From a bacterium (lineage in GTDB: Bacteria > UBA3054): a stretch of 5,098 nucleotides of DNA. Below, piece by piece: positions 190 through 5,098 of this stretch. The number at the start of each line of letters is the position of its first letter. Position 1 is the stretch's first letter. The position numbers and the translations under genes are program-made. The stretch covers positions 1 to 5,098 of the forward strand of contig JAFYIM010000099.1 in NCBI GenBank assembly GCA_017538635.1, given 5' to 3'. The notes under the pieces are model-generated. The model saw only the letters and a program-made list of their open reading frames with translations. It was not told the origin of the DNA and did not search any database.

Positions 190-1095
190 CTAATCTTTCA
201 AAACGTCTTTGCTTATAGCTTGTATCTTTGCCCTTTCGTTGATCAGATAAGCAATTACAGGCATTCTCTCCTCGCTGCCAGGTTGGGCAAGCGCTAAGTC
301 TGTAAGAGACGATACAATAAGTTTTATGCCTTCTGGATGTTCTATAGAAATCAGTTGAGAAGCTGTCTCAACGCCATTTTTGATGTTTTCAAGGCTCTCG
401 TGACGATTAGCCCACAGCCAACTCAAAACAGCATCAAGTTTTTTCTCTTTGTCGTTATTTTCAGCAACAATTATCGTAAGTTCGAGAAAAGCTGGCAGAA
501 CGCCGCCTTTTTCTTTGAACTCCTTTGCAAAAGCAGCCATATCACCAACACAATTTGGGAAACGGCGACAATATTCATTTAGTGATGAAATTTGCTCTAG
601 ATCAAAAGGATCGTATAAAATGGCTTCCTTCTGAGTAGCTATACGATTTACTTGGTCCTTTTTTCTTATATAATGGTCTCTCATTCTATAGAAAAGATTT
701 TTATAGCTTTTCCACTGATTGCCCTTTGCTTTTTCTTCCCACTCTTTAATCGCCTTGCGAGCTTCTTTTACAATGGCTTGATTCTGATTATGATAAGACT
801 CAGCCTTGTACCAAAGACTGGCAGAATATATAGTCAGAGACAGAGGCTCCATGTCTGACGCAACATATCCATCAGCTTTTCCTGATTGAAGAATGTCGAC
901 TAAAAGTTGAGAAGCCTCCTTTAATTTTTGTGTTTTGGCAGCTTCCTCAACTTTTGTTAATTCGGTATAAATATCAGCATTGGTCACAGTATCGGCGATT
1001 AGCCAAACTCCTTTCTCGATCATAAAAGCATGGCAAAGCATCGGAATGCAAAAAGCGAGAAGTGCGATCAAAGTGTTATTACAATTTACTTTCAT
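190..1095 (-). CDS. Exported, all-helical protein of unknown function (301 aa)
   Basis: This complete ORF runs from ATG at 1095 to TAG at 190. It begins with a Sec signal peptide: MKVNCNN n-region, hydrophobic residues 8-20, and a C21-H22-A23 signal-peptidase I site, which predicts an exported mature protein of about 278 residues. The mature part looks almost wholly alpha-helical. Residues about 40-75 and 85-125 form charged amphipathic helices with an alternating pattern like TPR/alpha-solenoid repeats, though I see no canonical TPR. Cys176 and Cys182 (C-X5-C) are the only cysteines in the mature part and could form a disulfide outside the cytoplasm. There are no catalytic motifs, membrane anchors or lipobox. 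No Shine-Dalgarno sequence is visible before the ATG (the preceding bases are TTTCTTAACAA). The gene lies about 119 nt downstream of the start predicted from a consensus sigma-54 promoter and is followed at once by a second exported protein. I do not recognise the family; a protein-binding scaffold role is only a guess. Confidence 0.8.
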   Translation of the reverse strand: MKVNCNNTLIALLAFCIPMLCHAFMIEKGVWLIADTVTNADIYTELTKVEEAAKTQKLKEASQLLVDILQSGKADGYVASDMEPLSLTIYSASLWYKAESYHNQNQAIVKEARKAIKEWEEKAKGNQWKSYKNLFYRMRDHYIRKKDQVNRIATQKEAILYDPFDLEQISSLNEYCRRFPNCVGDMAAFAKEFKEKGGVLPAFLELTIIVAENNDKEKKLDAVLSWLWANRHESLENIKNGVETASQLISIEHPEGIKLIVSSLTDLALAQPGSEERMPVIAYLINERAKIQAISKDVLKD

Positions 1096-1224: not shown

Positions 1225-1241
1225 AGCAAAAAGCGTGCCAA
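1225..1241 (-). promoter_or_regulatory. Sigma-54 (RpoN) promoter driving the exported-protein genes
   Basis: On the - strand, positions 1241 to 1225 read TTGGCACGCTTTTTGCT. This matches the sigma-54 consensus TTGGCACG-N4-TTGCW at every specified base. The invariant GG (1239-1238) and GC (1227-1226) are separated by exactly 10 bases. The predicted transcription start is near 1214, and the first gene downstream is the exported protein starting at 1095. Sigma-54 promoters are silent without an ATP-dependent enhancer-binding activator, normally bound 80-150 bp upstream. The two palindromes centred on 1301 and 1333 lie at about -87 and -119 from this start. The assignment is by motif only. Confidence 0.85.
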
Positions 1242-1293: not shown

Positions 1294-1308
1294 TTACATT
1301 TTATGTAA
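1294..1308. promoter_or_regulatory. Palindromic operator 1, TTACAT-N3-ATGTAA (candidate enhancer-binding-protein site)
   Basis: The sequence TTACATTTTATGTAA is a perfect 6-3-6 inverted repeat, as expected for a site bound by a homodimeric regulator. It lies between the two divergent sigma-54 promoters, about 108 bp upstream of the + strand predicted start (1409) and 87 bp upstream of the - strand one (1214). It is the same motif as operator 2. It does not match the NtrC consensus (TGCACC-N5-GGTGCA) and is inverted relative to the Bacillus-type GlnR site (TGT...ACA). The three-base loop is too short and the stem too AT-rich for a credible terminator. Confidence 0.65.
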
Positions 1309-1324
1309 TACAGCAAAGCCAATC

Positions 1325-1341
1325 ATTACATTAAATGTAAT
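1325..1341. promoter_or_regulatory. Palindromic operator 2, ATTACAT-N3-ATGTAAT (candidate enhancer-binding-protein site)
   Basis: The sequence ATTACATTAAATGTAAT is a perfect 7-3-7 inverted repeat sharing the TTACAT-N3-ATGTAA core with operator 1. The centres (1301 and 1333) are 32 bp apart, close to three turns of B-DNA. Dimers on both sites would therefore face the same side, as in tandem enhancers where activators oligomerise. It lies at about -76 from the right-hand sigma-54 start and about -119 from the left-hand one. Sharing by both promoters is an inference from geometry. Confidence 0.65.
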
Positions 1342-1381: not shown

Positions 1382-1398
1382 TTGGCACACCTTTTGCT
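1382..1398 (+). promoter_or_regulatory. Sigma-54 (RpoN) promoter of the asparagine synthetase-gltB operon
   Basis: The sequence TTGGCACACCTTTTGCT matches TTGGCACG-N4-TTGCW at all specified bases but one (A for G after TGGCAC). GG at 1384-1385 and GC at 1396-1397 are exactly 10 bases apart, giving a -24/-12 promoter with a predicted start near 1409 and a 37 nt leader before the ATG at 1446. It is nearly the same as the opposing promoter: 1381-1401 and the reverse complement of 1222-1242 agree at 19 of 21 positions. Sigma-54 control fits the downstream nitrogen-assimilation genes. An overlapping sigma-70-type promoter is possible (TTGCTT at 1394, TACTAT at 1416) but is a weaker match. Confidence 0.85.
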
Positions 1399-2690: not shown

Positions 2691-5098
2691 ATGAAAGGAC
2701 TGTACGACCAAAGTTTCGAGCACGACGCCTGCGGCGTGGGATTGGTAGCCGACCTGAACAACATCGCCTCCCATGAGGTCATCGCTTCAGGTCTGAGTGT
2801 CCTCAAGAATCTCATCCACCGCGGCGCCACGGGCAACGATCCGGAGACCGGCGACGGCGCCGGCCTCCTTTTCCAGCTTCCCGACGCGTTCTTCAGAAAG
2901 ATCATTCCCAATCTTCCTCCACTCGGCCAATACGCTGTGGCCATGGTCTTTGAAAAAGCGGACGAAAAGGATCTGATCGAAGCGACGCTGAAAGAATGCG
3001 GTTTCCGCGTCCTCTGCTGGCGCGACGTTCCCGTGAAGCCCGAAGCGATAGGCACCGTAGCGAGATCCGGCATGCCCTCTATAAAGCAGCTTTTCATCAC
3101 CTTCGATCCCGTGGGCGACGGCGGCGAACTCGAAAGAAAGCTCTTCGTTTTGAGAAGGGTGTTGGAAAAGAAATGCCAGAGCACCTTCTTCTGCTCCCTT
3201 TCCTCCCGCACCATCGTTTACAAAGGTCTTTTCATCGCGACGCAGCTGGAGAGATTCTATCCCGACCTGACGGAAAAGGATCTGACTTCCGCTCTGGTCT
3301 TGGTCCACCAGCGTTTCTCCACCAATACTTTCCCGAGCTGGGAACTGGCTCATCCTTTCCGCCTTTTGGCCCACAACGGGGAGATAAACACCATCAAAGG
3401 CAACCTGAACGCCATGCGCTCCCGGCTGCCTTCTTTGCACTCTCCCCTCCTTAAGGACGACATGGAGAAGATCCTGCCGCTCTTTACGGAAGGCGCCTCG
3501 GACTCTTTCTGTCTTGACAACATTTTCGAGCTCCTCATAAATTCCGGCTACGACCCGGCGCATGCCATCCTTATGCTAATGCCCCAGGCCTGGGGCGCGA
3601 AGTACCACATGGGGCACGACATCAGAGCCTTCTACGAATATCACTCCGCCCTGATGGAACCCTGGGACGGCCCCTCCGCCTTGGCTTTCACCGACGGCGT
3701 CATGGCTGGCGCGGCCCTCGACAGGAACGGCCTCAGGCCCGCCCGCTGGACTTTGAGAAAAGACGGACTTTTCGTGCTGGCTTCCGAGACCGGAGTGCTT
3801 AACATCGCCCCCAAAGACGTGGCAAGACGCGGGCACTTGAACCCCGGCGCCATCATCTGCCTCGACCTCAATGAACACCGCATTCTGGAAAACGAGGAAG
3901 TGAAAACCAGGTGCGCCAGGAGCAAACCCTACCGCCGCTGGGTGGAGACTAACCATGTCCAGATCCAAGGCCTATTCACGGAAGTCGCTCCCTCCTCAGT
4001 TCCAGAAGACCTCGCCGCCAAGCAGGAATTCTTCAATTACGACAAGGCGAACGTCATCAAAGCCCTGAAGTTCATGGGCGAAAACGGCAAGGAGCAGGTT
4101 GGCTCCATGGGCTGCACAAGCCCCTTGGCCGCTCTCTCCAAAAAATACCATCCCCTCTTCGACTATTTCCACCAAAGCTTCGCCCAGGTCACCAATCCTC
4201 CCATCGACTCCATCAGGGAAGAGCAGGTCATGTCGATCATGACCTACATTGGCAACAGCGGCAACATCCTCGAGGAAACTCCCGACTGCGCCAAACTGAT
4301 AAAGCTTAAAAGACCGATCCTGACAGAGGATGAACTGAAACGGCTCTCAGGTTACAAAGCCCAGACCTTCCCCCTCTTCTTCAAGGACGATCTTTCCGCC
4401 GCCCTCACAAAACTGGCAAACGACGCTCTTTCGGCCGTAAAGGAAGGCGTGAAGATCCTTATCCTTTCCGACCGGCTGGAAAACAAAAAGGACGGCGAAC
4501 TGCCCATCCCCTCGCTTCTGGCCGCGGCCACAGTTGACAAAATCTTGAACGACGCCGGCAAAAGGCCACCCGTGGGCATCATCCTCCAGACCGCCGAGTG
4601 CTGGGACGTCCACCACTTCGCGGTGCTCCTAAGCTACGGCGCCACCGCCATCGCGCCGTATCTGGCCTTCGAGACTATTTCCAACATCTTCCCGGATGAT
4701 CCTGTCAAAGCCTCCTCCAATTACGTCAAGGCCATAAAGAACGGCCTTCTCAAGATCATGGCGAAGGTCGGCATCTCGACATTGAGAAGCTACCGCTTCG
4801 CCAAGCTCTTCGAGATCATGGGGCTTTCCCCTGAAATGGTGAATTCCTATTTCTCCGGCACTCCCTCGAGGATTGGCGGCATAGGCTTAGCCGAACTGGA
4901 ACAGAAGATCAAAGAGCTCCACGCAGCCAAATGCGAAATAAAAGAGCGCCCATGCTGGACCGCCAAAGCCCAGATCGCTTTGAGGGAAGCAACGAGAGGA
5001 AACGACTACGCGAAATTCCAGGAATTCTCGAATATAGTAAACGACACCTCGGAAGGCTGCCACACCTTAAGGGATCTTCTGAAATTCAAGAAAACGAA
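2691..5098 (+). CDS. gltB: Glutamate synthase large subunit, N-terminal 802 residues (runs off right edge)
   Basis: The frame is open from ATG 2691 to the window end. The enzyme reductively transfers the glutamine amide to 2-oxoglutarate, giving two glutamates, and usually works with an electron-supplying small subunit (GltD) in the cytoplasm. The protein opens with a 13-residue propeptide before the N-terminal nucleophile Cys14 (HDACGVGLVA). Class II glutamine amidotransferase signatures follow: HQRFSTNTFPSW at 206, HNGEINT at 228, Asp271 in the GASDSF segment, and DRNGLRPAR at 344. The central domain includes GENGKEQVGSMG (about 463) and FAQVTNPPID (497). HHFAVLLSYGATAI (641) and GISTLRSYRFAKLFE (694) follow. 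The window ends about where the FMN/2-oxoglutarate domain begins, so the Fe-S cysteines and the glutamate-forming site are not seen. It starts 12 nt after the asparagine synthetase stop, with only a weak GAAAAGA before the ATG, so translational coupling is likely. Compared with E. coli GltB as I recall it, the GGEYHAYNP segment before residue 770 is missing. Confidence 0.95.
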   Translation, partial: MKGLYDQSFEHDACGVGLVADLNNIASHEVIASGLSVLKNLIHRGATGNDPETGDGAGLLFQLPDAFFRKIIPNLPPLGQYAVAMVFEKADEKDLIEATLKECGFRVLCWRDVPVKPEAIGTVARSGMPSIKQLFITFDPVGDGGELERKLFVLRRVLEKKCQSTFFCSLSSRTIVYKGLFIATQLERFYPDLTEKDLTSALVLVHQRFSTNTFPSWELAHPFRLLAHNGEINTIKGNLNAMRSRLPSLHSPLLKDDMEKILPLFTEGASDSFCLDNIFELLINSGYDPAHAILMLMPQAWGAKYHMGHDIRAFYEYHSALMEPWDGPSALAFTDGVMAGAALDRNGLRPARWTLRKDGLFVLASETGVLNIAPKDVARRGHLNPGAIICLDLNEHRILENEEVKTRCARSKPYRRWVETNHVQIQGLFTEVAPSSVPEDLAAKQEFFNYDKANVIKALKFMGENGKEQVGSMGCTSPLAALSKKYHPLFDYFHQSFAQVTNPPIDSIREEQVMSIMTYIGNSGNILEETPDCAKLIKLKRPILTEDELKRLSGYKAQTFPLFFKDDLSAALTKLANDALSAVKEGVKILILSDRLENKKDGELPIPSLLAAATVDKILNDAGKRPPVGIILQTAECWDVHHFAVLLSYGATAIAPYLAFETISNIFPDDPVKASSNYVKAIKNGLLKIMAKVGISTLRSYRFAKLFEIMGLSPEMVNSYFSGTPSRIGGIGLAELEQKIKELHAAKCEIKERPCWTAKAQIALREATRGNDYAKFQEFSNIVNDTSEGCHTLRDLLKFKKT

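Follow-up and report, generated by a model that had tools for sequence, protein, structure and literature searches.

Organization of the region upstream of asnA and gltB

The window, by which we mean the whole stretch of 5,098 nucleotides that was analysed, carries an asnA-like gene and gltB on the right of an intergenic region and a gene for a 301-residue protein on the left. The features are given below in the order of their coordinates.

190..1095, minus strand: gene for a 301-aa protein of no Pfam or NCBIfam family, behind the left promoter
1225..1240, minus strand: left divergent sigma-54 −24/−12 element TGGCACGCTTTTTGCT, perfect; found elsewhere only in the near-identical locus L001
1294..1308, no strand: dyad 1, TTACATTTTATGTAA (core TACA-N5-TGTA), a perfect palindrome centred on 1301
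1326..1340, no strand: dyad 2, TTACATTAAATGTAA (core TACA-N5-TGTA), a perfect palindrome centred on 1333
1383..1398, plus strand: right sigma-54 −24/−12 element TGGCACACCTTTTGCT of the asnA-like/gltB operon, perfect; conserved in L001–L005
1446..2678, plus strand: asnA-like gene, with a class II aminoacyl-tRNA synthetase fold; asparagine synthetase A models match below their cut-offs
2691..5098, plus strand: gltB, glutamate synthase large subunit, extending past the end of the window

Both dyads read TTACAT-N3-ATGTAA with their centres 32 bp apart, and they lie between two perfect, divergent sigma-54 elements, as a preliminary description of this DNA had stated. With the T of TGGCAC counted as −26, the dyad centres are at −76 and −108 from the right start and at −87 and −119 from the left start, the same values as had been given there. 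The exact palindrome occurs twice in the window and in none of 200 dinucleotide shuffles of it, and the perfect element TGGCAC-N5-TTGCW also occurs twice, against a shuffle mean of 0.01. When up to three mismatches to the palindrome were allowed, the window still held two matches, which is not unusual (shuffle mean 1.01; 56 of the 200 shuffles reached two). Scanning of the window against Rfam gave no match up to an E-value of 1, and a search of a plasmid collection gave a single match at 26.4% identity.

The nearest contig, JAFZID010000043.1 (L001; genome G001), came from water-buffalo reticulum and shows three differences over bases 1–1475. On comparison of the window with L187, the asnA-like gene differed by approximately 10% (positions 1476–2600), with divergence falling back to approximately 1% where gltB begins; the window and the G001 contig thus appear from their sequences to form a recombination mosaic centred on asnA.

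Conservation of the tandem dyads at two nitrogen operons

Five close loci in five genomes (91–93% identity) were collected by alignment of the asnA-like protein, without using the motif. In all five, a perfect sigma-54 element is preceded by two TACA-N5-TGTA dyads at the 32-bp spacing. A search of 145 genomes, taken as relatives of G001, gave 12 copies of the zero-mismatch tandem at exactly 32 bp, in six genomes (two each in G001–G005 and G007), and all 12 copies lie at two operons, namely asnA-like/gltB and an operon headed by the glutamine synthetase III gene glnN (Pfam GSIII_N); for G001–G005 taken alone this holds for 10 out of 10. A purF-like gene follows glnN in G001 and G005, and in G007 the order downstream of glnN is a purF-like gene (below cut-off), then carA and carB. 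The main predicted targets are two separate operons, glnN and asnA–gltB. Inexact matching was much less selective: with up to three mismatches to the tandem core, G001–G005 gave 13 forward matches (10 with no mismatch, three with three) against 11 for the reversed-pattern control, and with up to two mismatches the 145 genomes gave 59 forward matches against 72 for the reversed control, a control figure that pools the mismatch classes.

In the six genomes, all 16 core columns were invariant at both operons, compared with three of the 19 inter-dyad columns at asnA–gltB and nine of 19 at glnN, although this footprint is partly circular because the glnN loci and the G007 loci had been found by the motif. 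The palindromes are thus conserved in relatives, which was the outcome that the preliminary description had asked footprinting to decide. Its core was slightly too long, however: the palindrome itself stands, and what is invariant in the six genomes is TACA-N5-TGTA. The pair keeps exactly the same spacing in relatives and so most likely serves to dock an activator of nitrogen assimilation.

Specificity and geometry relative to sigma-54 promoters

The eight clade genomes contain 40 perfect sigma-54 elements, 28 in G001–G005 and 12 in G006–G008, where the reversed control gave eight and four respectively; the elements are commoner than the control, yet there are chance matches among them. A tandem lies within 200 bp upstream of 13 of the 40 elements, the search that the preliminary description had proposed, and the other 27 are without one. 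At these 13 elements the dyads stand 50–94 bp upstream of the −24/−12 motif. Relative to the T of TGGCAC, the dyads are centred at −83/−51 in five genomes for asnA–gltB (−82/−50 in G001 and the window), at −94/−62 for glnN and at −93/−61 for the left promoter of the window. The offset of 11–12 bp between these position classes is approximately one helical turn, and both operons thus have their dyads on the same helical face. Single TTACA-N5-TGTAA sites were not commoner than the reversed control in five genomes (nine against seven), and seven of the nine fall inside the two enhancers. The information lies in the pairing and the place of the dyads.

No sigma-54 element was found at four GlnN2 loci, no perfect one at five AsnA2 loci, and none at eight of nine gltB loci elsewhere, partial gltB matches having been left out. 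The elements without a tandem include those of genes read as clpB and dnaK. Ten loci (L121, L130, L142, L143, L225, L238; L124, L144, L145, L243) combine perfect sigma-54 elements with other palindromes, their genes being read as clpB and dnaK, and the conserved palindrome upstream of clpB is of another kind, GGGACAAAATGTCGC. Stress genes in this clade seem, from these promoters, to be driven by sigma-54.

A NifA-like candidate activator

The sigma-54 activator domain gave three or four strong matches per clade genome, with four in each of G006–G008, and the proteins fall into four classes, a–d. Classes a (gene beside lgt) and d (beside a glycosyltransferase) are response-regulator activators, and class c is a one-component protein resembling NifA, with the order GAF, AAA+, Fis HTH, whose gene (L099:919-2436) stands beside guaA; the names clpB, dnaK, guaA and lgt are our readings of the sequence. 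In the NifA-like protein, Pfam GAF and Sigma54_activat scored above cut-off and HTH_8 reached 21.9 bits against a cut-off of 22. The best NCBIfam model was NifA, at 447.6 compared with 528.85 bits and so below the nifA equivalog cut-off. The HTH of class c is nearly constant within the clade and differs from that of homologues elsewhere, of which the closest are approximately 62% identical, have the HTH SPRMMNYRLNKAG and are in part named Kiritimatiellae or Oligosphaeraceae.

In all eight clade genomes (L334–L341), an ACA-N5-TGT dyad lies 26–28 bp before the start codon of the NifA-like gene, in each case one mismatch from TACA-N5-TGTA, and the 300 bp upstream hold no ACA-TGT dyad at any other spacing from 2 to 8. 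The chance per 300-bp sequence is 0.016 for a dyad of that spacing and 0.035 for the longer core with one mismatch, the eight upstream sequences being not independent because they are closely related. With up to one mismatch, no such dyad was found in the 300 bp before the class b genes (six sequences), nor before lgt (five sequences), guaA (seven), clpB (six) or dnaK (five); one further hit in the upstream scan was the same dyad read from the opposite side of the intergenic region. G006 and G008 lack gltB, glnN1 and the tandem, and keep the activator gene and its dyad. A sigma-70-like promoter, TTGAAT-N17-TAAAAT, was read just before the dyad of the NifA-like gene, and the position of the dyad just downstream of it suggests autorepression. 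Response regulator b was rejected as the activator, as its HTH differs between G003 and G004 and the sites agree.

ACA-N4-TGT dyads outside the clade

Among 69 distant asnA loci, 18 had a convincing sigma-54 element, perfect in 14 and with one mismatch in four (L017, L020, L023, L030, L031, L034, L035, L038, L039, L041, L046, L047, L049, L050, L053, L057, L064 and L072), mostly in genomes labelled Deltaproteobacteria. In this survey L052, which has no upstream sequence, was left out, L001–L010 were treated apart, and two of 20 flagged loci, L013 and L068, were discarded because their matches were weak, with two mismatches. ACA-N4-TGT formed nine dyads in seven of the 18 loci, where exact dinucleotide shuffles gave a mean of 0.84 and none of 1000 reached nine; spacings 2, 3 and 5–8 were not clearly enriched at these promoters. 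Two N4 dyads stand 32 bp apart in L072.

Of 21 upstream regions taken from class c homologues of other genomes, outside the clade (L345, from the same genome as L304, and L348 were left out), nine had the ACA-N4-TGT dyad (shuffle mean 1.32; 0 of 1000 shuffles), and no other spacing was enriched. In the close relatives G010, G013 and G014 and in G027, the N4 dyad lies 22–26 bp before the activator start, matching the position of the clade's N5 dyad, with these positions approximate since start codons were chosen by rule. NifA-like homologues adjoin amtB at L306, L309 and L314, and the one at L315 (genome G159) lies between glnA and asnA; a nitrogen gene was confirmed at at least five of 13 homologue loci, whose neighbours were scanned in part. 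Amidotransferase-like neighbours at L306 and L308–L310 were read from sequence and have no Pfam match. In a Deltaproteobacteria-labelled genome, a gene for an NrpR-type repressor, nrpR (L307:282-1295, minus strand), is directly downstream of the NifA-like homologue. ACA-N4-TGT dyads also stand beside amtB, as raw pattern matches. The gltB of G159 has a weak sigma-54 element with an N4 dyad upstream, and glnN of G010 and G013–G015 has a one-mismatch element with tandem dyads approximately 30 bp apart, as read by eye.

Both at the gene of the regulator and at the target promoters, the spacing is thus N4 outside the clade and N5 within it. In these other genomes the N4 dyad is absent from 11 of the 18 sigma-54 asnA promoters and from 12 of the 21 homologue upstream regions. 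The genomes that have it at asnA mostly differ from those in which amtB adjoins the activator, and of the former only G146 also showed it at the activator gene. We propose tentatively, and with slightly more doubt than belief, that an ancient NifA-like nitrogen-assimilation switch reading ACA-N4-TGT in several phyla was re-spelled in one rumen clade via the recognition helix SSRMINYYIKQY, the sites changing to ACA-N5-TGT together with it, both before the activator gene and at the two target operons.

Comparison with known systems

At glnAp2 the NtrC sites are 32 bp apart, at −108/−140. Like the NtrC/glnA enhancer, the present one consists of a pair of dyads of that width class in front of a nitrogen-assimilation sigma-54 promoter, but the half-site is different, the dyads are closer to the promoter, and the probable activator is a one-component protein whereas NtrC is a response regulator. 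The 17-bp NtrC consensus is given as TGCACCAnnnTGGTGCA for the E. coli glnA enhancer (PMC8743547) and glnAp2 is described as having two high-affinity NtrC sites (PMC3870243). An NtrC site was rejected here, as the TGCACC-N5-GGTGCA box had no match in the window with up to three mismatches. The upstream site of NifA is TGT-N10-ACA. Its sole occurrence in the window is at 301–316, inside the left gene, with none at the enhancer, and a NifA site was rejected as well. The candidate activator does have the NifA domain order of GAF, AAA+ and Fis HTH, but the half-sites of the dyad are in the opposite order and the targets are assimilation genes. The GlnR/TnrA site, TGTNA-N7-TNACA, has no match in the intergenic enhancer and was likewise rejected; with one mismatch there are four in the window, more than shuffles give (one of 200 reached four). 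The earlier judgement that the core is neither an NtrC nor a GlnR site therefore holds.

A further related system is DVU1949 of Desulfovibrio vulgaris, a one-component sigma-54 activator with predicted control of nitrogen metabolism and transport (PMC4641369). Compared by description only, it is like our candidate a one-component sigma-54 activator for nitrogen, but its regulon is predicted to comprise nine operons, whereas ours has two. Literature searching turned up no described TTACAT-N3-ATGTAA sigma-54 site among the titles and abstract openings listed. By its sequence, the enhancer can be regarded as a lineage-specific version of a known enhancer type.

Identity of the regulator and reach of the enhancer

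The tandem dyads are, on these comparisons, very probably a genuine sigma-54 activator enhancer with an NtrC-like layout and a different half-site. Palindromes of such a size would also fit dimeric repressors, and the dyads might bind a repressor or another regulator unrelated to sigma-54. We consider this very improbable, as the tandem occurs nowhere but in front of sigma-54 elements, standing at enhancer distance with a constant helical phase and without overlap of the dyads with the promoters. Within the sigma-54 activators, the enhancer might instead belong to a response regulator of class a or d, as with NtrC in enterobacteria: NtrC is itself a response regulator, and both classes are conserved with recognition helices nearly constant in the clade. 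This seems unlikely to us, since no TACA-N5-TGTA dyad with up to one mismatch lies in the 300 bp before the genes of either class (seven sequences each), and the class a recognition helix is almost the same in the clade as in G010, G013 and G014, whereas the dyad spacing is not. Class a is absent from the G001 matches, though that assembly may be incomplete. The activator of the tandem enhancer is thus probably the NifA-like protein. The preliminary description is supported in seeing a sigma-54 activator enhancer of nitrogen genes, which relatives share and which goes with sigma-54 promoters; for its 'unidentified' activator a NifA-like candidate can be named.

Its proposal that the enhancer serves two promoters at once was not supported by comparison. 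The left −24/−12 element is present only in the window and L001, which lend it no support because they are nearly identical there, and the other five enhancer genomes, G002–G005 and G007, have no perfect left-hand element beside asnA; a different gene lies to its left in these genomes and the left gene block of the window was not found next to asnA there. The start of the left gene lies 129 bases downstream from its element. Its 301-aa product gave 14 database matches, one identical and 13 at 43–68%, and the left gene block gave no match, or weak ones under cut-offs, against PHROGs and Pfam. In G001, four co-directional genes, apparently with signal peptides, lie behind the left sigma-54 promoter (L187:7696-12271, minus strand), and none has a Pfam family above cut-off. 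The enhancer could act on the right promoter only, the left element being a chance match or inactive. We give this reading rather less than even weight, as the left element fits the consensus perfectly, belongs to a pattern with few copies in the genome (six in G001), and sets the dyads within 1 bp of the glnN arrangement. Sharing of one enhancer with the left promoter remains plausible.

Proposed mechanism and significance

Taken together, it is quite likely that the dyads are an upstream activating sequence for ammonium assimilation, with the NifA-like activator as the most likely ligand. Two activator dimers would bind the dyads, which face the same side of the DNA at a distance of three helical turns, and would help to assemble the AAA+ ring. 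DNA looping would bring the activator, presumably answering a nitrogen signal, to the sigma-54 RNA polymerase waiting at the −24/−12 element. The polymerase would then transcribe the asnA-like gene and gltB, and at the second locus glnN and the genes that follow. The NifA-like protein would probably repress its own gene via the lone dyad at the start site.

These features would make up a specific nitrogen-control operator in a rumen lineage that is uncultured and has few sigma-54 activators. The circuit would comprise two target operons and one probable autoregulatory site, with three or four activators as candidates. If the proposal is true, the two-operon regulon spans glutamine, glutamate and probably asparagine synthesis. 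The comparison further suggests that in several phyla nitrogen assimilation is activated by a NifA-like protein and not by NtrC. If the sites were indeed re-spelled with the recognition helix, a regulator and every one of its known sites would have changed together in nature, and the N4/N5 difference would offer a clean system for studying such joint change.
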